DNA of 64,000 nt from Idiomarina zobellii (GTDB lineage Bacteria; Pseudomonadota; Gammaproteobacteria; Enterobacterales; Alteromonadaceae), in assembly GCF_900100855.1 (NCBI RefSeq), contig NZ_FNCB01000014.1:1-64000 (forward strand), in the 5' to 3' direction. The notes below the pieces were generated by a model. That model was given only the letters and a program-made list of their open reading frames with translations. It did no database searches and was not told the DNA's origin. Below are positions 53,740 to 63,921 of this stretch, piece after piece. Position numbers and translations under genes: made by a program. Each line of letters starts with the position of its first letter. The first letter of the stretch is position 1.

Positions 53740-54102
53740 TTAAAACACCAAACGACCGGACGATAACGCCGTGTCGCCTTTTTTATAGTTAAACGTAATG
53801 CAGTCTTTTCGTTTACGCTGTATCACCAAGTCAACGTCGGCACCGGGTAAAATCATATCGTTGAACTTTAACACCTCAACCCGCTGAATGCTGACCGGTG
53901 TAGACCAGTGCTGCGATGCCAGCTGAACCACCCAGTCAAGCTGTGTAACGCCCGGAAGAATGGGCGCCGATGGAAAGTGCCCCTGCAAATAGATACAGTC
54001 TTCACTCAACCGAAAACTGCCGACTATTTCAGCGTTATCAGCATCGTTCACTCGCTCGCTCAAGGATGAAAATTCCGGTAGCTGCGTTTTCATTTCAGTC
54101 AT
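53740..54102 (-). CDS. apeI: APE dehydratase (ApeI-like, FabA/FabZ type)
   Basis: This 120-residue hotdog protein has the active-site motif GHFPSAPILPGVTQLDW, with the catalytic His and the helix-capping Pro-Gly as in FabZ. It probably forms the working dehydratase together with ApeP. It overlaps the ligase gene by eight bases; an alternative ATG three codons in (54093) would avoid this. Confidence 0.86.
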   Translation of the reverse strand: MTEMKTQLPEFSSLSERVNDADNAEIVGSFRLSEDCIYLQGHFPSAPILPGVTQLDWVVQLASQHWSTPVSIQRVEVLKFNDMILPGADVDLVIQRKRKDCITFNYKKGDTALSSGRLVF

Positions 54103-55465
54103 TCCTTGTTACGTCGGTAAAGAGGTTTTGCAGTGCGGCCTGAGTGACTTTTCCGGCATCGTTAATTGGGAGCGCAGAAACATAGCGAAACCGTTTGGGG
54201 ACCACGACTTTTTCAAAGCGTTGTTGCAAATGATGCCTTAATGCCTGACGCACAGCAAAGCGTCCCTCGCTTTCCAGCGCCTTTCTGCCAGAGTCCGTCA
54301 GTATTATCACCAAGCCAATTTCATTGCGTTTACCTTCCAGCAAACAAGCCTTTACCTGACTTACCCAGTCTTGTTGGAGGGTGAAGCGCTCAACTTCATT
54401 TAAAGACACACGTTTCTCAGCAATTTTTACCACGGTGTCTTTTCTGCCTAACAAATGAAAGCGACCCTGTTGCTCGATTTTTATCTGATCTTCAGAGATA
54501 AATTCATCCTCTGGGTTCGCCAGATGAGGTGATGTCACAGCCAAAACGCCGTGCTCGGTGGCCCGGACTTTAACACCAACAAGCGGGGTAAATGCCTCGC
54601 CGCCGTTGTTACGCTGACGCCAGGCAATACCGCCGGTTTCGGTACTGCCATAAACCTCAATAGGAACAACTAAATCATGCTTTTTAAAATCGATGGGGAC
54701 CTGTTCCGGTAGCGGCCCGCCCGATGAGAAAATGGCCTTTAACGCCTCATTCCGGGCACTCAGCTCGTCCAGATTATCAAGACGTTGTAAGTGTGCAGGG
54801 CTACCGACCAATACATGACGCTGACCGTCATCCGCTAGCACTTCGGCAAGCTGCTCCGGATACTCAATTAACTGTGTGTTCACGACCCGACCACTGGCTA
54901 ACGGCCACAATACCGTAAACAACAAACCATAAATATGTTGATGGGTGACGGTTGAAACTATACGGCTACCCGCTATCAACTCGCCAAAGGTCGCTTCCAA
55001 CGTCTCAACTTCATTGAGCAGCTGACGAATTGTTTTGATGACCGGTTTGGGCTTACCGCTACTGCCTGATGTGAAAAACGTTAACTGACTGTCTAACGAG
55101 CCGCTCAACGTCTGAAGCTGTTGCTGCTCACTAAGGTCTGGTAACTTTGACGGCACCCTCACATCATAACTTTGGCTTAGTTCAGCCAGGGTTACTGGTT
55201 TATCGTTCGAGGGTAATACGATATCGCGGCCAAGGCTTAAGAACGCAAAGAACCAAACACTAAACTCGTAGAGATCGCTGCGGTACAAAAGTACTCTGCC
55301 AGAGTGGTCGTCCAGCCATTGAGCGGCGCCGCGCACATCATTAAGCCATTGCTGAGCGCAAACGACACCTTGCGGTGTTTGCATACAAGGCGCATTTAAT
55401 GCCTGCCAGGACAGCTCCCAGCAGTTAGTGTTTGTCTTTAACAACACGACGAACACTCCATTCAA
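54095..55465 (-). CDS. apeH: AMP-forming aryl/acyl ligase (ApeH-like)
   Basis: This 456-residue ANL-family adenylating enzyme has the P-loop FFTSGSSGKPK (about 129-139), YGSTETGG, the hinge GRKDTVVKI and the C-terminal Lys in NDAGKVTQ. It probably activates the (4-hydroxy)cinnamate starter and loads it on an acyl carrier protein. The ATG at 55465 overlaps the membrane-protein gene by 41 bases. A GTG or TTG near 55447-55444 could be the real start. Confidence 0.87.
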   Translation of the reverse strand: MNGVFVVLLKTNTNCWELSWQALNAPCMQTPQGVVCAQQWLNDVRGAAQWLDDHSGRVLLYRSDLYEFSVWFFAFLSLGRDIVLPSNDKPVTLAELSQSYDVRVPSKLPDLSEQQQLQTLSGSLDSQLTFFTSGSSGKPKPVIKTIRQLLNEVETLEATFGELIAGSRIVSTVTHQHIYGLLFTVLWPLASGRVVNTQLIEYPEQLAEVLADDGQRHVLVGSPAHLQRLDNLDELSARNEALKAIFSSGGPLPEQVPIDFKKHDLVVPIEVYGSTETGGIAWRQRNNGGEAFTPLVGVKVRATEHGVLAVTSPHLANPEDEFISEDQIKIEQQGRFHLLGRKDTVVKIAEKRVSLNEVERFTLQQDWVSQVKACLLEGKRNEIGLVIILTDSGRKALESEGRFAVRQALRHHLQQRFEKVVVPKRFRYVSALPINDAGKVTQAALQNLFTDVTRND

Positions 55466-55973
55466 TAATAAACAATAAGCCCATCAGCACGTAGGCGATA
55501 AATCCGTTATAAAGAGTCCAGATGTCCATATCGCCATAGAGCACCGTGGCCAGTGAAACGGCACCATTCACCAGAAAAAAGCCCACCCAGACCCAAGTGA
55601 CCTTTTCGGTGTAAGCAACGGCTTTTTCCGATAACTCCCCTTCCATTAAGCGAGCCAGGCGAGTGATGACGGCAGGCTTGAACCATAAAGACAGTAAAAA
55701 GACAGTCAGCATTGCTGCGTTCATCCAAACAGGGTAAAGCAATACACTGGTAAGCTGGTCAGTAAACAAGAAGGTGATAGCGACCACAATAAGAACGACT
55801 GCTGACACCCAGCTCCTGGGGTTTTTTATACCTTGAATTGCCACTTGTGACACAAGTACGGCAAGCAGGATTAATAGCAGCCCGTCAGTTAATCCTTGCT
55901 GCGCTAACCACCAGACTAAAAGTGGGTAGGCAATCAGCACTATACTGATTAACGTGCGCAGCAAGAGTTTCAT
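55425..55973 (-). CDS. apeG: APE cluster membrane protein (ApeG-like, COG4648)
   Basis: This 182-residue protein has about six hydrophobic segments and a cytosolic loop rich in charged residues near LARLMEGELSEKAVAYTEKV. This COG4648 family is restricted mainly to aryl-polyene clusters and its function is not established. It overlaps the carrier-protein gene by one base and the ligase gene by 41. Confidence 0.8.
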   Translation of the reverse strand: MKLLLRTLISIVLIAYPLLVWWLAQQGLTDGLLLILLAVLVSQVAIQGIKNPRSWVSAVVLIVVAITFLFTDQLTSVLLYPVWMNAAMLTVFLLSLWFKPAVITRLARLMEGELSEKAVAYTEKVTWVWVGFFLVNGAVSLATVLYGDMDIWTLYNGFIAYVLMGLLFIIEWSVRRVVKDKH

Positions 55974-56224
55974 TATTCGCCGTGAACAAGCTTATAAACT
56001 TCGTTGACAACGTCATCTACTGTGCGGACGGCTTTGAAAGCATCGGGGCTAATTTTCTTACCCGTAATTTCGCGTAGCTTAACGACCAGGTCTACCGCAT
56101 CAATCGAGTCCAAATCTAAATCTTCATATAAGTTGGCTTCTAATGCGATTTCATCCGACTCAATCTCGAAGTCCTCTTCAAGAATCTGGGTGAGTCTAGC
56201 GTATACTTCGTCTTTCGTTTTCAT
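55973..56224 (-). CDS. apeF: Acyl carrier protein (ApeF-like)
   Basis: This 83-residue acidic carrier has the phosphopantetheine attachment Ser40 in EDLDLDSIDAVDL. The ATG at 56224 is favoured by GAGGG just upstream. The first possible ATG at 56239 overlaps the previous stop (TAATG) and adds five residues. It is one of two tandem carriers. The divergent phosphopantetheinyl transferase at 58034 would activate both. Confidence 0.9.
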   Translation of the reverse strand: MKTKDEVYARLTQILEEDFEIESDEIALEANLYEDLDLDSIDAVDLVVKLREITGKKISPDAFKAVRTVDDVVNEVYKLVHGE

Positions 56225-56238
56225 CTTTCCCTCGTTCA

Positions 56239-56508
56239 TTAACCGCGATTTGCCGCAACAAAGTCAGCTATGGTATCCACGCTATAAAAGTGCTTTTTTG
56301 TCTCCGCCGAATTCGCATCCAGCTTTACATCAAACTGTTTCTTAATGGCTAACCCCAACTCTAATGCGTCAATAGAGTCCAGGTTTAAGCCATCGTCATC
56401 GTCGCCAAATAGTGCTGCTGAGTCGTTAATATCGGATACTTCTACATCTTCAAGATCCAACGACTCGATAATCAACTGCTTGATCTCTGTTTTCAGACTG
56501 TCTGTCAT
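56239..56508 (-). CDS. apeE: Acyl carrier protein (ApeE-like)
   Basis: This 89-residue acyl carrier protein has its modified serine at Ser45 in GLNLDSIDALELG, preceded by the acidic loop FGDDDD. The ATG at 56508 has AAAGGTG seven bases upstream. Its first 59 bases overlap the 3' end of the acyltransferase gene in another frame, an unusually long overlap. Confidence 0.9.
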   Translation of the reverse strand: MTDSLKTEIKQLIIESLDLEDVEVSDINDSAALFGDDDDGLNLDSIDALELGLAIKKQFDVKLDANSAETKKHFYSVDTIADFVAANRG

Positions 56509-57286
56509 CTTGTAACACCTTTTCATAAAAATTCTGCAAGTCACGCGTTAAGTGGCGTGCGGCAATACTCAGTTTTTCTTCATCGCGATACGCTTGGGTA
56601 TCAATTTCTTTTAAATAATGAACAGAAAGTGTTGGTTTTTCTTTAGGCGCCTGATACCACATTTCATTTTTAATCAGTGTGACTGGCGAGCAGTCAACCC
56701 AAAGCGCCGTCACCTTCGCTTTTGTGCGCAACGCTAAATGCGCTGCCCCCCGCTGAAACCGAATCTTCTCACCGGGCGTTGTACGTGTGCCTTCCGGGAA
56801 TATAATTAGGTTACAGCCTTGCTCGAGCGACTCCTGACAGTCCTTCACCAGTTCATCCGGGTCTTCATTACTCAAGTAACCGGTCGACTTTATCACCCCC
56901 TTCATAAAAGGGTTTTTCCATAAATGTGACTTAACGACACAATCTGGGTTGGGCACAAAGGAAATAAGCGCCACTACGTCAATAAGGCAAGGGTGGTTCG
57001 CAATAATAACCTGCCCTTTCACCTGTTTAAGTTGCTCTACCGCTTTGAAGTCGAAGTTGAACACACCCGTCCACTTCATGACACCAATAAACCAGCGAAA
57101 CGTTAGTTGCACCAAACGTCTTGCCCGCGCCTGACGCAATTCCTCGTTGCCTGCTGAAATGAGCTTCAGTGCCGGCAGCGCCGTAAGTGATAAAATGACT
57201 CCGCCAATACCAAATATGGCAAAGCACAACCCCGTCGCTAAACGGCGCCAGGTTCTGTTAATAAACTTCCAGAGCCTAACTAACAT
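56450..57286 (-). CDS. apeD: PlsC-type acyltransferase (ApeD-like)
   Basis: This 278-residue 1-acylglycerol-3-phosphate-acyltransferase-like protein has an N-terminal membrane segment (about 20-45) and the LPLAT motifs NHPCLIDVVA (HX4D) and IIFPEGTRTTPGE. The ATG at 57286, with GGAG five bases upstream, shares 11 bases with the upstream gene; an earlier ATG at 57310 would overlap by 35. Its C-terminus runs 59 bases into apeE. Confidence 0.85.
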   Translation of the reverse strand: MLVRLWKFINRTWRRLATGLCFAIFGIGGVILSLTALPALKLISAGNEELRQARARRLVQLTFRWFIGVMKWTGVFNFDFKAVEQLKQVKGQVIIANHPCLIDVVALISFVPNPDCVVKSHLWKNPFMKGVIKSTGYLSNEDPDELVKDCQESLEQGCNLIIFPEGTRTTPGEKIRFQRGAAHLALRTKAKVTALWVDCSPVTLIKNEMWYQAPKEKPTLSVHYLKEIDTQAYRDEEKLSIAARHLTRDLQNFYEKVLQDDRQSENRDQAVDYRVVGS

Positions 57287-57953
57287 GCCAACTCCAGCTG
57301 TTTGCGCCATAGTTTACTACTAAGCGTTGCTTGCCTTGTTCCAGACAATGTTGAAGCTTTTCAGCAACGTCGTAAGCGTCGTAATGTTCAGCAGACTCAC
57401 GAGACTGATCCAAAATCACTTCGCGACCGTTTTCTCTATCGAGCAAAACCGCCTGAGCGAACGCATGAATAGGCGAGTTTTGCTGTTTTCTATACACTTC
57501 AGGCGGTGTTTCGTCAGCGACGACCAACAACACTCTTTCAAACTCATTTGATACTTGTGCAATTGCTTCCAGCCAACCCAGCGGATACGTCTCTTCCCCG
57601 CCAGATATCGTTGTCATTGCCTGCTGATTATCGACAGCCATACTATACTGACCCAAAACAGCATTATTCACAGAAAGCCCGAATTGAGTCGGCGATAACA
57701 CTTCCCCCTGGACTAATGTTCTTAGCAGCTTCTCTGTGCGTTGTAAGTCGCCATGACGTGTCGCCAAAACGACAGGTGTGTTATGTACACCTTTCTCCCG
57801 CTCCGCAAGCTCCATTATGGCTGTTACAATTAGTTTTGAATAAGAGCTCAAACGACGTCGCATTGATGCCGGAACCTGTTTTAAACGGTCACGACATTCA
57901 CTGGTAACTAGGGTACTATCAGCGACAAAGACTTTCGCTTGAGAAGCTCTCAT
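57276..57953 (-). CDS. apeC: Ketosynthase-like chain-length factor (ApeC-like)
   Basis: This 225-residue protein matches the beta-ketoacyl-synthase-like N-terminal family (PF13723), about half the length of a ketosynthase. It lacks the Cys-His-His triad; the nucleophile position is in AVDNQQAMTTISGGEETY. In APE systems ApeC forms a heterodimer with the ketosynthase ApeO and sets chain length. It is the first gene of the operon, and its promoter lies in the 80-base gap shared with the divergent phosphopantetheinyl transferase. Confidence 0.83.
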   Translation of the reverse strand: MRASQAKVFVADSTLVTSECRDRLKQVPASMRRRLSSYSKLIVTAIMELAEREKGVHNTPVVLATRHGDLQRTEKLLRTLVQGEVLSPTQFGLSVNNAVLGQYSMAVDNQQAMTTISGGEETYPLGWLEAIAQVSNEFERVLLVVADETPPEVYRKQQNSPIHAFAQAVLLDRENGREVILDQSRESAEHYDAYDVAEKLQHCLEQGKQRLVVNYGANSWSWHVS

Positions 57954-58033
57954 AATGTATTTGTTCAGGTACTCAAAAAAGATGCGGAATAGTACAGAAT
58001 TTAGCGTCGATTTTCAAAAATATAACATCGTCT

Positions 58034-58561
58034 ATGGTTATCGGATATAGGCTACTCCCTTATGGGTTAAGCCGCAAAGAAACGTCCTTAGAAGCAGGAA
58101 AACTGTTAAAACAATTAGTTGCACAAGAAACCGGCGTGTCCTTAGCTGATGTTTCTCTTCAAAAAAACGACAATGGCGCCCCTCAGCTGTCCGTTTCAGG
58201 CACTAATGTTTATTGCTCTATTAGCCATAAAAAAAATTTTGTCGTTGCCGCATACTCCGCCGAGTCTCCCATAGGCGTTGATGTCGAGAACCTAGAGTCA
58301 AACAAAGATTACAGCCGCATACGCGAGCACTACGCAGACGGCTTTTTGAAGGGAGTAACAACAAAAGAGGATTTCTTTTACCGTTGGACGCTTGCGGAGG
58401 CCTACGCAAAGGCGTCGGGCCGGCCGTTATTAGAAGTCTTAGCGCAACCGTTCGAACCTACCGAGAACCTGCATTACACAACGATAAGCAACTTTTTAGT
58501 CTGCACCTACGTAGACTCTAATAAGGATAAATTTCAACGACCTAAAGTCATTCTGTTATAG
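58034..58561 (+). CDS. 4'-phosphopantetheinyl transferase (Sfp type)
   Basis: This 175-residue transferase has GVDVENLE (Asp83 and Glu85 for Mg binding) and FYRWTLAEAYAKASG (Trp118, Glu122, Lys126), the two family signatures; SISHKKNFV binds CoA. It is a short Sfp-type enzyme that converts apo-acyl carriers to holo form. Being divergent from the APE operon, it is the likely activator of ApeE and ApeF. There is no clear Shine-Dalgarno before the ATG. Confidence 0.92.
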   Translation: MVIGYRLLPYGLSRKETSLEAGKLLKQLVAQETGVSLADVSLQKNDNGAPQLSVSGTNVYCSISHKKNFVVAAYSAESPIGVDVENLESNKDYSRIREHYADGFLKGVTTKEDFFYRWTLAEAYAKASGRPLLEVLAQPFEPTENLHYTTISNFLVCTYVDSNKDKFQRPKVILL

Positions 58562-58622
58562 AGTGGTCGTTATTTTTCTTTGCTCTACACTTAAATAAAA
58601 CACTAAAAAAGACGAGCTCACT

Positions 58623-59078
58623 ATGAACACAGCCAAAAACAAACTGATATACACTCTCGGGTTTCTCGGGCTCATTCCTTTTATCGTTAGCTCGCTGGCT
58701 GAGCTTATGCAGGTTGAGTCTTTGTTTGGCATTCAACCACTTGATCTACTCATTACCTACGGTGCGATTATTCTGACGTTTCTCGGTGGTGTGCTGTGGG
58801 GCCGAGCGCTGCACAGAGCAGAGAGCGAACCCACTAATGCGCTACTGGTTCTAAGCAATGCTTTTGCCATACTTGCCTGGCTAACCCTATTACTGGACTC
58901 ATCTGCTTGGTCACTAGGTCTTCAAATGGCCGGATTTGCGACCTTGCTTTTCTTCGAGCAGAAGCTGGCGAGAAGCTCAGCCATGACCTCTTACATGGGT
59001 TATTACCGCATTCGCTTAATACTAACGTCAGCGGTAATAGTCTGTGAGCTGTTAGTTTTCTGGAATCATATTCTTTAA
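58623..59078 (+). CDS. DUF3429 membrane protein
   Basis: This 151-residue inner-membrane protein has about five hydrophobic helices and the DUF3429 signature YGAIILTFLGGVLWG near residue 50; SYMGYYRIRLILT is also conserved. Function unknown. GACGAG lies before the ATG. Its 3' end overlaps the convergent glycosyltransferase fusion by four bases. Confidence 0.85.
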   Translation: MNTAKNKLIYTLGFLGLIPFIVSSLAELMQVESLFGIQPLDLLITYGAIILTFLGGVLWGRALHRAESEPTNALLVLSNAFAILAWLTLLLDSSAWSLGLQMAGFATLLFFEQKLARSSAMTSYMGYYRIRLILTSAVIVCELLVFWNHIL

Positions 59079-61297
59079 TTCTTTGCTTCATGATAACGAG
59101 CCAGGGTTTCGGCATAAATATGGCGAACATCCTGGCTGAAACGCTCTACTGAATAAGCTTTGGCAAAACTTTCAGCGTTGTCGGAAAGCTCCTTACGCAA
59201 GCTCTCATCGTTAAGAATACGCTCTACTCTTTCCAACCAAACCGCTTGCTTAGCGGGCGTTTTATAACCGTTAAATCCGTCTTCCACAACATCATCAATA
59301 CCACTAGAACGAACCGCAACAACCGGTAAGCCCGCAGCCATAGCTTCCAAAATAACCATGCCCTGCGTTTCAGACTGAGACGCGAACAAAAAGGCGTCTC
59401 CTAGCTGATACCAGTTGGCCATATTTTCAGGCGCTACCGAGCCCACCAGCTGAATGGTTTGTGTTAAACCGAGCTCGTCTATTTTCGCTTGTAATCGCTG
59501 CTTCTGGTGTCCATCACCCACAATTAATAGCCGGAACGCCTTGTCGGTGTTCTTCTTGAGCTCTGCCAGCGCGTCTATCATAAAGTCGATGTTTTTCTCG
59601 TTAGAGAGTCGCGACACGCTCACAAAAACGGTTTCATCTTTTATTTTCAGCCGCTTTTTAAGCTTCTCAACTTGCGCTGGTTCCACGTGCTGAAAGCGGT
59701 CGTATTCAATGCCTGTCGGCTGCACATAGGTTGGTGCTGTCACCCCTATCATGCGCAGGTACTCTTCGGTTGAGTCGGTCGGCACAATGACAGCATCACA
59801 CTTGTTCGCAAATCGGCGCACTAGAAAGTGCGCAATAATATTACGAAACAGAGACCCCGGTAAAAACACAAAGTGCGCGTAATGTTCGAGTCGCGTGTGA
59901 TACGTATAAACAGCCGGCACTTTCAAGCGGCGAGCCATGTAAACACCCAATGAACCTATCCAAAACGGATGATGCACATGAATAATATCCGGCTTAAACG
60001 CTTTAACTTTTTTGCGCACCGCAGACGAAAAGATATTGGCGAAGCGAAATTCACTTTTTTCACCAAACGAGAAAATAGACGGCATGCGTATTACATTCTT
60101 TTCTTTTTTTCGTGTTTTCTTGTAACGCGGTGCCACAATGAGCACGGTGTCTTTAAGCTTCTCCAGTCCGCAGCGTAAACGTTCTATTGAAATAGGTACA
60201 CCACCAATAAACGGCAGGTAGTTGTTGGTGAACATGGCTACTTTCAGGTGGCGGTTTAACCATGGGTCGGCATCAATGTCGTAGTCCGGATAATAATCTT
60301 TTCCTATAAAAACAGCGTTGTAGAGCTTGGTGCTGATAACCAGAAACACTGCCACCAACAGAATAAAGTTTAAATAGCCCACATAAAACAACGAGTGAAT
60401 GAAAAACCAAAAGCTCTCTAGTTGTTTTAGTATCGGATGCTGACCAATCTCCAGTTCTTGAACTGAGTGGTCGACCGAACCATCCGCGTTCACGCTCACT
60501 TTAACGTAGTGATAAAAACTCTCGTCCTGATTCAATACCAACCCGCCAGCACCACCGGTCGTAATATAAGGAATGCCTTTGTAGTCACTTTCCGAGTAAA
60601 TAGATATGTTCGATGAAAACACCCGGTCAACGCCATAATTACTCAGTGTCTGTTGAAGCGCATGACGAAATTCGATGGGCTGTAAATAGTCATCCTCTTC
60701 CGCAAGAATAAACTCTTCTGCGGGCTCCATAGGAGGGTGCCCAATAAACACAAACCGATGCTTGGAGTTATCGGCTTTTAAAATCTCGGTCAGCCAACGC
60801 AGCTGCCACTGCCAAGGGGTTTTACCGGTGCTGTCGAGGAATATTAAGCGACTGTTCCCGGCTGTAAAGCTGAAAAAATGCGGGCCGTAATGGTCATAAA
60901 AACGGAAGCTGCCAAATTCCTCGTATTCATTTTCACCAAACGTCAGCAAGTAAGGCATTTCCAGGTGGGACAAAGTGCCCCGTATCGCTCGGTACTTGTC
61001 TTCTCCGCCACTGCTCACTGCATTACCGGCAGATATCAGAAAGTCGATGTTTTCATTATTAAGCATAGGAATAATGCGGCGCTCGAATATTCCTACCGAG
61101 TTATTAATGTTGCCGACAACCGCAAAGCTATAACTGTCCTGACCTTCCAGACGAGCACTAATGGCAGCCAGTTGATCGGTGTGTTCCGCTTTAAACTCTG
61201 AGGTAACTAGGTTTAAGTAAACCTTATAGCCAATAAGGCCAACAATAATGGCGATATTTAAATAAAACAGGATTTTTAAAAGCTTGGTTTTTGTCAT
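59075..61297 (-). CDS. Membrane-anchored pseudo-phosphoesterase fused to a GT4 glycosyltransferase
   Basis: This 740-residue fusion has TM1 at 8-28 and a calcineurin-like phosphoesterase fold (about 55-285), then TM2 near 298-322 and a family-4 glycosyltransferase (about 351-735). In the phosphoesterase part nearly all metal ligands are replaced: DxH becomes GNI (62-64), GD becomes GN (91-92), GNH(D/E) becomes GENE (121-124) and GHxH becomes SSNIS. Only the GH at 186-187 remains, so hydrolysis is unlikely. The GT4 part resembles diacylglycerol glucosyltransferases (HHPFWIGSLG, YTYHTRLEHYAHF, SETQGMVILEAMAAGLP). It overlaps the flippase-like gene by four bases. A glycolipid role is inferred. 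Confidence 0.87.
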   Translation of the reverse strand: MTKTKLLKILFYLNIAIIVGLIGYKVYLNLVTSEFKAEHTDQLAAISARLEGQDSYSFAVVGNINNSVGIFERRIIPMLNNENIDFLISAGNAVSSGGEDKYRAIRGTLSHLEMPYLLTFGENEYEEFGSFRFYDHYGPHFFSFTAGNSRLIFLDSTGKTPWQWQLRWLTEILKADNSKHRFVFIGHPPMEPAEEFILAEEDDYLQPIEFRHALQQTLSNYGVDRVFSSNISIYSESDYKGIPYITTGGAGGLVLNQDESFYHYVKVSVNADGSVDHSVQELEIGQHPILKQLESFWFFIHSLFYVGYLNFILLVAVFLVISTKLYNAVFIGKDYYPDYDIDADPWLNRHLKVAMFTNNYLPFIGGVPISIERLRCGLEKLKDTVLIVAPRYKKTRKKEKNVIRMPSIFSFGEKSEFRFANIFSSAVRKKVKAFKPDIIHVHHPFWIGSLGVYMARRLKVPAVYTYHTRLEHYAHFVFLPGSLFRNIIAHFLVRRFANKCDAVIVPTDSTEEYLRMIGVTAPTYVQPTGIEYDRFQHVEPAQVEKLKKRLKIKDETVFVSVSRLSNEKNIDFMIDALAELKKNTDKAFRLLIVGDGHQKQRLQAKIDELGLTQTIQLVGSVAPENMANWYQLGDAFLFASQSETQGMVILEAMAAGLPVVAVRSSGIDDVVEDGFNGYKTPAKQAVWLERVERILNDESLRKELSDNAESFAKAYSVERFSQDVRHIYAETLARYHEAKN

Positions 61298-62358
61298 GAT
61301 ACATCCTGTTTATGAGCAGATTTAACGAGATACCTTTGCAATACCATTAAACCGACGATCATTCCCAGATAAATCGTCAAAAAGCGCCAGCTGAACGTAA
61401 CTAATAATAAATGATTATTCGCCAAAATATCATTAAAGAAGCTGCCGAACACACCTTCTGATATGCCTGATGCCCCAGGGGTCGGAGCGAAATACATAAT
61501 GAAGGTAGTCACCACCAGTAAGCCAAGGCTCACTAAGTAATTTATATCGTAGCCCAGCCCCCACATTAAGAGCGCAGGAAAACTGAATAAACTGATGAGG
61601 AACACGGCGGTGAAAAATACCGACAACGCAATAGCTGACTTTGAACCACGGCAATACTCTGCAAAGCTTCGACTAAAACGCAGCATTTCCCGACGAGCCT
61701 TGTATTGCCAGCGCTGATGCCGTGACTCGCTCATTAAATGCAACTTATGCAAGCCATGAAATAACTTACTTAACGGCCCAATGAGCCAATGTGCTCTAAG
61801 CAAAACAATAGCGAAAAAAGCCAGATACAGAACAATAAAGACTGCCAGTGCGCCACCAATGTCGCTGATAAAGGCTTCGTTTTGCAAGGGCGTTAAAGTC
61901 AGCAAAAACACCGGCGTCAGCGAAAAAATAAAGAAAATGGCCAGCACCGTTCGTATGGTGGTTGCGGCGGTCGCCCTGCCAATAGGAACCCCGTGCCTGT
62001 GCAAAAACCAAACCTGTGCGAAGCCGCCACCGGTAGCCATAGGGGTAATATTCGAGAAAAAGATATTAATGAACACCAGCTTGGTCATTGCGCTTTTGGG
62101 TATTCTGTAGCCCAGCGCTCTTAAGGTGTAATAAAGTCGCAGCCCGTCAGCAGCGAAGTACACTATTAGAAGTAGAATGGTCAGGCTGATAACTTCAGGT
62201 GCAAACAGCCGGAAGTCAAAGGTAAGCTCACGGCTAGAAAAATTATTATAAATGGCGTAGAAACCAGCGGCTGTTAATGCAATGAACAGCAACGCAAACA
62301 AAAGCAGTCGTTTCCCTGACGTTTGGGGCTTTTGCGTATCCTTACTTTCGGTTGTCAT
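61294..62358 (-). CDS. Flippase-like membrane protein (LPG_synthase_TM / UPF0104)
   Basis: This 354-residue inner-membrane protein has about eight helices and the family signatures FINIFFSNITPMATGGGFAQ and MYFAPTPGASGISEGVFG. It is the N-terminal integral domain of lysyl-phosphatidylglycerol synthases without the catalytic domain, a family implicated in lipid translocation. Coupled at ATGA to the glycosyltransferase fusion, it may flip the glycolipid made by it. Its ribosome-binding site lies in a perfect hairpin. Confidence 0.88.
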   Translation of the reverse strand: MTTESKDTQKPQTSGKRLLLFALLFIALTAAGFYAIYNNFSSRELTFDFRLFAPEVISLTILLLIVYFAADGLRLYYTLRALGYRIPKSAMTKLVFINIFFSNITPMATGGGFAQVWFLHRHGVPIGRATAATTIRTVLAIFFIFSLTPVFLLTLTPLQNEAFISDIGGALAVFIVLYLAFFAIVLLRAHWLIGPLSKLFHGLHKLHLMSESRHQRWQYKARREMLRFSRSFAEYCRGSKSAIALSVFFTAVFLISLFSFPALLMWGLGYDINYLVSLGLLVVTTFIMYFAPTPGASGISEGVFGSFFNDILANNHLLLVTFSWRFLTIYLGMIVGLMVLQRYLVKSAHKQDVS

Positions 62359-62364
62359 TAATGG

Positions 62365-62410
62365 TTCTCCGCCCCTTCGTATCTGCCTGAGATTATGAGG
62401 GGGCGGAGAA
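62365..62410 (-). promoter_or_regulatory. Hairpin enclosing the ribosome-binding site of the flippase gene
   Basis: On the minus strand, TTCTCCGCCCC and GGGGCGGAGAA are perfectly complementary over 11 bp, with a 24-base loop. The GGAG of the second arm is the Shine-Dalgarno, six to seven bases before the ATG at 62358. Folding would hide it. This could be a thermometer or a ligand- or protein-controlled leader. It could also act as a weak terminator after the SDR gene, but no T-run follows. Confidence 0.6.
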
Positions 62411-62443
62411 AGTATGTCAAAACAAGGCGTTAAGACTTGCCCG

Positions 62444-63118
62444 TTAATATGCCGGCATTAAAAACACTTCACGCACGCAGTTACGCGGGTTGGCGTTTAT
62501 TGCGTACAGTACAGCGTCTGCAACGTCATCAGGGTCCAGCTTATCCGGCTTAGGTTCGTCAAAGAACGGCGTATTCACCATACCCGGGGCTATGGTCGTG
62601 CAGCGGCCATTCCATTCTTTCATTTCTTCGGCTAAGTTCTGTGCAAAACCGTGTACAAACCATTTGGTGGCGCCATAAACCGAGCCTTTCAGCGTAATAC
62701 GTCCGGCAGCTGACCCTGTCATTAGAAAATGACCGGTAGTTTTGCGTAAATGCGGCAAAGTCAGTTTCGCGGTATAAAGAAGCCCGTTAATGTTCACATC
62801 AACCATCTGCTTCCATTCTTCAGCGTCGCCCTCTTCCGTTCCCGGCGTTGAAACACCGGTTCCCGCATTAGCGAACACCGCGTCTAGCTGACCAAACTTA
62901 TCAACGCCCTGCTTCACGGCCTGCTCGAGTTCGTTATAGTTACCCGCGTCAGCAGCAATACCAACGGCGTTGTCTTCGCCAAACTCTTTAACCAACGCGT
63001 CCAACTTATCTTTCCGGCGAGCGGTTAATATCAGCTTCAGGCCTTCCTGCGCCGCTTTACGCGCCGTAGCTTCACCGATGCCACTTGAGGCACCGGTAAT
63101 TAATAGAACTTTCGACAT
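62444..63118 (-). CDS. SDR-family oxidoreductase
   Basis: This 224-residue classical short-chain dehydrogenase has GASSGIGEATA for NADP binding, NAGTG, Ser in MTGSAAGRITLKG and the YGATKW active-site Tyr/Lys. The lack of an aspartate after the second strand and the Arg pair (TARRKDK) favour NADPH. AGGAGGA precedes the ATG. Substrate unknown. It lies 85 bases upstream of the flippase gene on the same strand, so a shared transcript is possible. Confidence 0.9.
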   Translation of the reverse strand: MSKVLLITGASSGIGEATARKAAQEGLKLILTARRKDKLDALVKEFGEDNAVGIAADAGNYNELEQAVKQGVDKFGQLDAVFANAGTGVSTPGTEEGDAEEWKQMVDVNINGLLYTAKLTLPHLRKTTGHFLMTGSAAGRITLKGSVYGATKWFVHGFAQNLAEEMKEWNGRCTTIAPGMVNTPFFDEPKPDKLDPDDVADAVLYAINANPRNCVREVFLMPAY

Positions 63119-63263
63119 GCTTCCTCCTGAATTTTACTTAACTAACTCTATTGTACTCATGATCACGAGTTAGCGATCAACTCATCTAGCTGTAAGAAAA
63201 AACTCCAATCGACAATGGTGGCTTTCAGCCCGGTTATTATGGTTTCTTTCCATAAAGCATAGT

Positions 63264-63313
63264 ACGCCATTGACTTACTCTGCTTTTAAACCCACAATAT
63301 ATACGCCAGTGAC
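63264..63313 (+). promoter_or_regulatory. Direct repeats and promoter of the toxin-antitoxin pair
   Basis: ACGCCATTGAC (63264-63274) and ACGCCAGTGAC (63303-63313) are 39 bases apart, differ at one base, and frame a weak promoter: TTGACT at 63270 and CAATAT at 63295. They lie just before the toxin start and are good candidates for antitoxin operator sites. Confidence 0.4.
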
Positions 63314-63319
63314 GCACTA

Positions 63320-63637
63320 ATGATATTTATCGAAACACCCGTATTTACAAAGCGTATCAAGGCGCTAATAAGTGATGATGAATACCGCAGGCTTCAAGTT
63401 AGCCTTACCGTGAACCCTAAACAAGGAGCGTTACTAAAGAATGGTAGCGGAATCAGAAAGGTGCGTTGGCGCACTGGCAGTCACGGAAAAAGGGGTGGAG
63501 TAAGAGTTCTCTACTACTACGCAGAAAGCTTAAGACAACTACGTATGTTATTTGTTTTCGGTAAGAATGAGCAAGACAACCTTACTGATGAGCAACTCAG
63601 TCAGCTAAGGGGAATTGTTGAAAGGTGGTCACAATGA
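63320..63637 (+). CDS. RelE/HigB-type toxin
   Basis: This 105-residue protein of the RelE superfamily (HigB-like, COG4737) is probably a ribosome-dependent mRNA interferase. It has a basic centre, RKVRWRTGSHGKRGGVRVLYYY, read in two parts, and the typical LFVFGKNEQDNLT strand. Toxin-first order and the ATGA overlap with the antitoxin fit the HigBA/NadS type. An intact reading frame suggests a live module. Confidence 0.88.
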   Translation: MIFIETPVFTKRIKALISDDEYRRLQVSLTVNPKQGALLKNGSGIRKVRWRTGSHGKRGGVRVLYYYAESLRQLRMLFVFGKNEQDNLTDEQLSQLRGIVERWSQ

Positions 63638-63921
63638 AAAGTGAATTATTTAACGAGCTACTGGAAAGCGTTGAACAAATGGATGAAATTGCTAAAGGCG
63701 AAAGGGAGCCATCCAGGGAAGAGTTTATTGCTTCGATACGAATCAAAAACATTAGAAAATCGGTAAAACTTAGCCAGCCAAAATTCGCTCGTTTAATTGG
63801 CGTTGAAGTAAGCACTTTACGAAACTGGGAGCAAGGTCGTAGAGAGCCGACAGGCCCAGCTCGGGTTCTAATTAAGGCAATTGAAAATGATCCTGAAAAC
63901 GTAATAAAGGCGTGCCAATAG
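63634..63921 (+). CDS. XRE-family antitoxin (HigA/NadS-like)
   Basis: This 95-residue protein has an acidic N-terminal segment, then a lambda-repressor-type HTH (about 45-80: LSQPKFARLIGVEVSTLRNWEQGRREPTG, read in parts). The family binds its cognate RelE-type toxin and represses the operon. The ATG at 63634 overlaps the toxin stop; AAAGGTGG lies upstream. The last codons form the left arm of the terminator. Confidence 0.9.
   Translation: MKSELFNELLESVEQMDEIAKGEREPSREEFIASIRIKNIRKSVKLSQPKFARLIGVEVSTLRNWEQGRREPTGPARVLIKAIENDPENVIKACQ

Follow-up and report, generated by a model that had tools for sequence, protein, structure and literature searches.

The closest described systems bring together enzymes and translocators of membrane lipids in several ways. 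In Pseudomonas aeruginosa, GpgSDF places a GT4 glycosyltransferase and a predicted flippase of YbhN type in a single predicted operon and concerns a membrane glycerolipid, GlcN-PG (PMC12713373), and in Clostridioides difficile HexSDF combines a glycolipid synthase with an MprF-like flippase, again in one operon (PMC10128005). Both include a deacetylase, the GpgSDF transferase is a separate protein predicted to be cytoplasmic, HexS is a predicted monogalactosyldiacylglycerol synthase, and the available sections of the two papers mention no phosphoesterase domain (PMC12713373, PMC10128005). The PlcP-Agt system of marine bacteria consists of a metallophosphoesterase and a GT4 enzyme acting on membrane lipids, as two separate proteins, with PlcP an active enzyme and with Pho regulation (PMC4796936, PMC8528852, PMC8231724); the word flippase is absent from the available parts of PMC8528852 and PMC8231724. 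MprF, an aminoacyl-PG synthase plus flippase, and the DedA/VTT scramblases likewise couple lipid modification to a translocating membrane protein. Here we compare with these systems a two-gene operon of Idiomarina zobellii, in which a gene for a flippase-like LPG_synthase_TM protein comes first and a gene fusing a dead phosphoesterase domain to a GT4 glycosyltransferase comes second. It lies, with its promoter, on the minus strand of the 64,000-nucleotide stretch that was analysed (the window; NCBI RefSeq assembly GCF_900100855.1, contig NZ_FNCB01000014.1, positions 1 to 64,000 of the forward strand), from a genome of 2.58 Mb whose closest named relatives are Idiomarina species.

The LPG_synthase_TM protein has 354 aa (61294..62358) and its gene is the upstream member of the pair. 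The fusion protein has 740 aa (59075..61297) and runs from a membrane helix through the dead phosphoesterase domain and a second membrane helix to the GT4 domain. The two genes share an ATGA (61294..61297), made of the flippase stop and the fusion start. Our analysis confirmed the observation of an earlier note on this DNA and partly supported its interpretation; the note had called the architecture unfamiliar, and a full-text search of openly licensed PubMed Central papers indeed found no description of it. By analogy, the unit would work like GpgSDF and HexSDF in general kind. It is not a GpgSDF member by family models, however, since the cut-offs for GpgS and GpgF were missed (128.6 against 480 bits and 41.1 against 320 bits, respectively) and membership was rejected; no family model was compared for HexSDF. 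No deacetylase gene was found in the operon, in a search confined to the flanking genes, which are of the SDR and DUF3429 types. Whereas MprF uses amino acid chemistry, the modification here would be by a sugar, and the genes are adjacent and unfused.

We give a probability of roughly 60% to the reading that the two genes form a make-and-flip unit for a membrane glycolipid, with the extracytoplasmic pseudo-phosphodiesterase as a binding module, most likely a sensor. What points to this reading is the combination of a lipid-type transferase, a probable translocating neighbour that comes from two families and a conserved pseudo-phosphodiesterase. The GT4 domain would be held at the inner face by the two membrane helices and would put a sugar on a glycerolipid, with diacylglycerol as the most likely acceptor and phosphatidylglycerol as the next. 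The LPG_synthase_TM protein, whose place a DedA/VTT protein would take in other lineages, would let the product reach the outer leaflet, where the dead domain would sense a lipid headgroup or phosphodiester and tune the transferase, or else serve as a plain anchor. The unit recurs in other marine bacteria and on some plasmids, which hints at a route for the synthesis and export of a membrane glycolipid that has yet to be described.

The pseudo-phosphoesterase domain

The domain (residues 50-285; 60443..61150) lies between a first membrane helix (residues 3-30, hydrophobic peak 6-24, with a Lys-rich N-terminus; 61208..61291) and a long helix that contains the second membrane segment (residues 288-331, hydrophobic peak 303-321; 60305..60436). 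It belongs to the calcineurin/purple-acid-phosphatase fold; the window protein scored 17.2 bits against the PF00149 gathering score of 21.5, and 40 of the 55 family members scanned matched Metallophos at an E value of 0.01 or better. The metal and catalytic motif set (D-x-H, GD, GNH, H, GHxH) is lost. Former motif I (D-x-H) now reads GNINNS (residues 62-67; 61097..61114), motif II (GD) SAGNA (residues 89-93; 61019..61033), motif III (GNH-D/E) GENE with a conserved E124 (residues 121-124; 60926..60937), motif IV GHP (residues 186-188; 60734..60742) and motif V (GHxH) SSNIS (residues 228-232; 60602..60616). The fold and the lost motifs bear out the view of the earlier note that a dead phosphoesterase sits between two hydrophobic helices.

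Residues were counted in 33 rows, the window protein and 32 relatives from a whole-domain search free of motif bias. The motif I Asp is replaced by N63 in 33/33 rows and the motif I His by N65 in 32/33, the motif II Asp is replaced by N92 in 33/33, changing GD to GN, and N66, S67 and E124 each occur in all 33. The motif IV His is kept in 24 rows, Asn (25/33) and Ser (21/33) predominate at the motif V positions, and GHxH is absent by pattern in 32/32 relatives. Because both metal-site Asp residues are replaced and GHxH is lost, no known two-metal site can form. Among 16 representatives of less than 80% identity, 36 of the domain's 236 columns show no variation, N63, N92 and E124 being among them, and 200 vary; the former motif IV/V columns, at 0.50, 0.69 and 0.44, lie close to the mean of 0.63 or under it. 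The ratio of nonsynonymous to synonymous substitution rates (dN/dS) was 0.022-0.069 for the dead domain (3/7 pairs estimable) and 0.015-0.041 for the transferase domain (5/7 pairs estimable), with several of the dS values near saturation. The metal site is dead by known chemistry, yet it is not drifting, and the domain is under purifying selection.

The closest relatives found for the domain were GpdQ, Rv0805, SpdA (weak) and purple acid phosphatases, and PlcP was not among the sequences compared. The metal ligands of GpdQ, Rv0805 and the purple acid phosphatases are absent from the window domain, which probably descends from a GpdQ/purple-acid-phosphatase-like metallophosphodiesterase. A survey of metal ligands in homologues, as the earlier note had proposed, did not turn up intact sites: no fused homologue with one was found by whole-domain searches or tblastn, and no unfused family members were seen in what was searched. 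The pattern-based contig scan is unable to test for intact sites, since its patterns FAV[VL]GNIN and YLLTFGxNE contain the dead motifs. We also looked at 22 weak domain matches outside the family and rejected them as ordinary phosphoesterases; loose patterns find the motifs in 20 (in L124 and L125 only via the loose last motif), L131 fails, L032 is without a usable frame, and none has a GT4-like E-x7-E pattern. Since GD, matched equally loosely, turns up at some place in 13/32 family rows and GNH in 1/32, only aligned positions count as evidence.

The phosphoesterase fold has an anchor or scaffold role in GAP50, a eukaryotic anchor protein, and in VPS29. It is conceivable, if somewhat unlikely, that the dead domain of the same make-and-flip unit is a membrane anchor or scaffold that senses no ligand, which would be compatible with our reading of the unit as such. 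A mere scaffold, however, need not freeze the old pocket in the way seen for N63, N65, N66, S67, N92 and E124, and the domain is kept beside translocators of two families, which makes docking to one translocator an unlikely reason for its presence. A bolder version of the sensor reading, which we consider unlikely and put forward tentatively, is that the pseudo-phosphodiesterase reads headgroups in the outer leaflet, of a phospholipid or of the unit's own product once flipped, and acts as a gate on sugar transfer in the inner leaflet, forming a self-regulating module carried by chromosomes and plasmids with either scramblase family. How bacteria control the amount of lipid in each leaflet is largely an open matter, and this family is a small, genetically linked system in which to test it: the LPG_synthase_TM and DedA/VTT partners should cross-complement if both move the same glycolipid. 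Such a role would also be a case of a metallophosphodiesterase domain taken into service in bacteria as a membrane sensor or anchor, and would point to a function for plasmid genes annotated only as glycosyltransferase and as lysylphosphatidylglycerol synthase transmembrane domain-containing protein.

The transferase and its putative translocator neighbours

The C-terminal GT4 (GT-B) domain (residues 352-740; 59078..60244) scored 139.5 bits to PF00534 and 105.2 bits to PF13439, Foldseek aligned it to BshA/MshA at an E value of about 1e-22, and GT4 domains were present in 55/55 family members scanned. E643 and E651 of the E-x7-E donor/catalytic motif (59345..59371) are invariant in 33/33 rows, and by its residues the transferase looks intact. 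The earlier note had likened this half to a diacylglycerol glucosyltransferase. The GT4 part of that claim stood, and the best curated match is the alpha-monoglucosyldiacylglycerol synthase Mgs (NF049988), a model of the transferase only, at 232 bits over nearly its whole length (2-390 of 398); the fusion is the sole match to it in the window genome. Since 232 bits falls below the 400-bit cut-off, Mgs membership was rejected and the diacylglycerol acceptor is one that we infer; 0/14 control genomes pass that cut-off either.

Across 229 genomes, the next GT4 proteins (E 1e-40 or better) were 28-35% identical. No phosphoesterase domain was seen in frame before them at the 27 loci read: 24 have at most 76 in-frame residues ahead of the transferase, and L142, L144 and L158 have longer open stretches that were judged spurious by reading (for L158, of the last 60 residues only). 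Long C-terminal extensions occur on the GT4 proteins of L147 and L149. Among the 50 matches listed from a viral structure library, most were viral or phage glycosyltransferases. At L143 (2-1336), an unfused GT4 relative adjoins a gene with a type I phosphodiesterase domain (42.3 bits), a further case of a GT4 of this type beside something phosphodiesterase-like.

The flippase-like protein scored 123.1 bits to PF03706 (cut-off 33.4) and 82.5 bits to TIGR00374 (cut-off 43.2). Its gene stands directly upstream of the fusion in 25/32 of the relatives from the whole-domain search, 17 of which belong to the window's own genus, and in 8 of the 15 outside it. It is adjacent in 71 of 80 pattern-found contig loci, a set that overlaps the 32 relatives, and the junction is ATGA or GTGA in 63/70 loci checked. 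Of 369 genomes of the class, 7 have the fusion and 5, the window's included, have the flippase subfamily (E 1e-30 or better), in each case together with the fusion; these five are not independent, as three share a genus. A distal copy of the subfamily was found in none of 16 fusion-carrying genomes that are without an adjacent flippase.

Seven of the 32 relatives are without the flippase, and in six of them (G028, G218, G422, G713, G792 and G834) the fusion adjoins a VTT/DedA gene, in codirectional, convergent or divergent orientation. It looks as if the lipid translocator had been replaced by one of another family. Four VTT partners scanned scored 84.8-89.8 bits to PF09335 (cut-off 33.9) and are mutually 39-67% identical, a further two share 79-87% identity with the G422 partner, and the partners of G713 and G792 coincide with PF09335 matches. 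A VTT neighbour also stands beside the fusion on a Halomonas plasmid. According to the available sections of one study, MprF is a promiscuous scramblase, able to move many lipids across with no external source of energy, and the authors regard the transport domains of DedA and MprF as somewhat interchangeable (PMC11980842). The COG0398 DedA proteins have been suggested to be phospholipid scramblases, again in the part of the report available (PMC10127716). The make-and-flip pairing, which the earlier note had drawn from the four-base overlap, gains from the conserved adjacency and from the alternative DedA/VTT neighbour, while its flippase is not universal.

The loci noted for a VTT gene in place of the LPG_synthase_TM neighbour are L186, L187, L188, L189, L193, L194 and L205. 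At L172 of Marinobacter sp. HL-58 (G855), whose fusion locus is without a flippase, a different LPG_synthase_TM gene adjoins a GT4 gene, possibly as another make-and-flip unit.

Counter-evidence and competing explanations

Several observations weigh against the make-and-flip reading or parts of it. The ancestral site is frozen only in part, since the former motif IV/V residues vary. In a set of 87 rows, 78 of them from the pattern-based scan whose patterns include some of the counted residues, 50 rows still have the motif III His and 72 the motif IV His. Of the four plasmid members read, three have a Glu as residue 63 and retain N65, N66, N92 and E124. Because only part of the site is frozen and some relatives keep the motif III or IV His, sensing is a guess. 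The transferase misses the 400-bit Mgs cut-off at 232, and the second-best model, that of GlcN-PG synthase, gave 129 bits (128.6) against a cut-off of 480. A tree of 37 fusion rows placed 5/6 VTT-linked fusions in one supported clade and the sixth, on a long branch, apart; the VTT associations may be independent once, perhaps twice (one ancestral event plus one more). Neither a flippase nor a VTT gene was detected beside the fusion in G811 or at the nine contig loci that lack a flippase hit (seven in Pseudomonas, L054 and L073), with VTT genes near loci sought by tblastn with four VTT proteins, so that a distant one could escape; a neighbouring translocator is therefore not obligatory. Among the 16 genomes searched, the fusion carriers G028, G218, G811 and G848 have no PF03706 match at all, and their VTT/DedA matches number 2, 3, 2 and 4, respectively. 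Finally, ExoD-type (exopolysaccharide) genes lie near the fusion at L189 and on the Alloyangia plasmid (L206).

The residues that persist could be taken to mean that the domain still hydrolyses by non-classical chemistry, using E124 and what else remains. The conserved E124 and Asn set, the His residues retained in that partly pattern-found set of 87 and the plasmid-borne Glu would fit such an activity, which is nevertheless extremely improbable given Asn in place of both metal-site Asp residues in every one of the 33 rows and the absence of GHxH from all 32 relatives by pattern.

The ExoD-type genes bear on a different product, a polyprenol-linked or other glycan intermediate whose carrier the flippase or DedA partner would serve. 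GT4 enzymes accept many acceptors, undecaprenyl phosphate is flipped by some DedA proteins according to the available part of PMC10127716, and 2/4 VTT partners match the UptA model weakly. These matches, however, reach 21-23 bits where the cut-off is 250, glycerolipid glycosyltransferases make up the two best curated models for the transferase, and no polysaccharide polymerase or ligase was found among the neighbours scanned (8 window proteins, 10 and 10, most neighbours being unscanned). We consider a glycan product quite unlikely.

The earlier note had also pointed to low phosphate, and the unit might belong to phosphate-starvation lipid remodelling, as a PlcP-Agt system now fused and dead. 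PlcP and Agt genes are neighbours in marine bacteria and are tied to MGDG/GADG synthesis at low phosphate in the available parts of the reports (PMC4796936, PMC8528852, PMC8231724). The low-phosphate link found no support here: no Pho box occurs at 58500-63300 with up to 3 mismatches, and the whole window has 7 matches against 4.1 expected by chance. A sigma-70-like promoter, TTGACA-17-CATAAT with an 11/12 match, is found there instead, just before the flippase gene (62392..62420). PlcP is described as manganese-dependent in the sections available, whereas the window domain is without known ligands, and the closest relatives found for it, with no PlcP sequence compared, are the other phosphoesterases named above. 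Such an explanation is very unlikely, and the make-and-flip unit with a binding module is the reading that we retain.

Distribution, promoter and flanking genes

The fusion is present in 17/18 same-genus genomes besides the window's own. Beyond the genus its spread is patchy, with occurrences in Marinobacter, Pseudomonas, Fodinicurvata, Pseudidiomarina and one metagenome-assembled genome labelled Desulfobacterales; the contig scan kept 80 loci of 200 relatives, and L078 and L114, whose frames are interrupted or short, did not enter the residue counts. Plasmid copies occur in Sulfitobacter (typed conjugative), Alloyangia, Pseudosulfitobacter and Halomonas, and plasmids of three roseobacters carry the flippase-fusion pair. 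Altogether 33 plasmid records match the N-terminal part, 30 of them from Pseudosulfitobacter, with 32 typed non-mobilizable and 1 conjugative; four of the matching plasmid loci were read. On the Pseudosulfitobacter plasmid L207 (922-7357), the pair is flanked by IS3 and IS110 family transposases. The patchy spread and the plasmid occurrence with flanking transposases suggest that the pair was transferred as a unit. An unidentified glycolipid is reported for Pseudidiomarina fusca and two reference strains are reported without one, in the part of the paper available (PMC10891523); as the gene content of those strains lay outside the analysis, this neither supports nor refutes our reading.

An equivalent promoter arrangement was found in 13/96 upstream regions scanned, all from Idiomarina/Pseudidiomarina or same-genus genomes. 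In the same scan it was absent from six other Idiomarina-group loci (L042, L044 and L047-L050) and from every Marinobacter locus. An inverted repeat, CTCCGCCCC / GGGGCGGAG (window 62367-62408), spans the -10 box ahead of the flippase gene. At L037 and L041 the arms differ in sequence yet still pair, as judged by eye, with the caveats that the left arm is upstream of the expected transcription start and that other loci pair over a short part only.

Beside the unit, window 53740-58561 looks like part of an aryl-polyene-type cluster. Ketosynthase-like, acyltransferase and phosphopantetheinyl transferase genes were identified there, to which reading added acyl carrier proteins and an AMP-ligase-like gene. 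In Marinobacter, other genes stand downstream of the pair. In window 63320-63921 a RelE-type gene, at 27.5 bits against a cut-off of 27, precedes one whose product, by reading, resembles a helix-turn-helix antitoxin.

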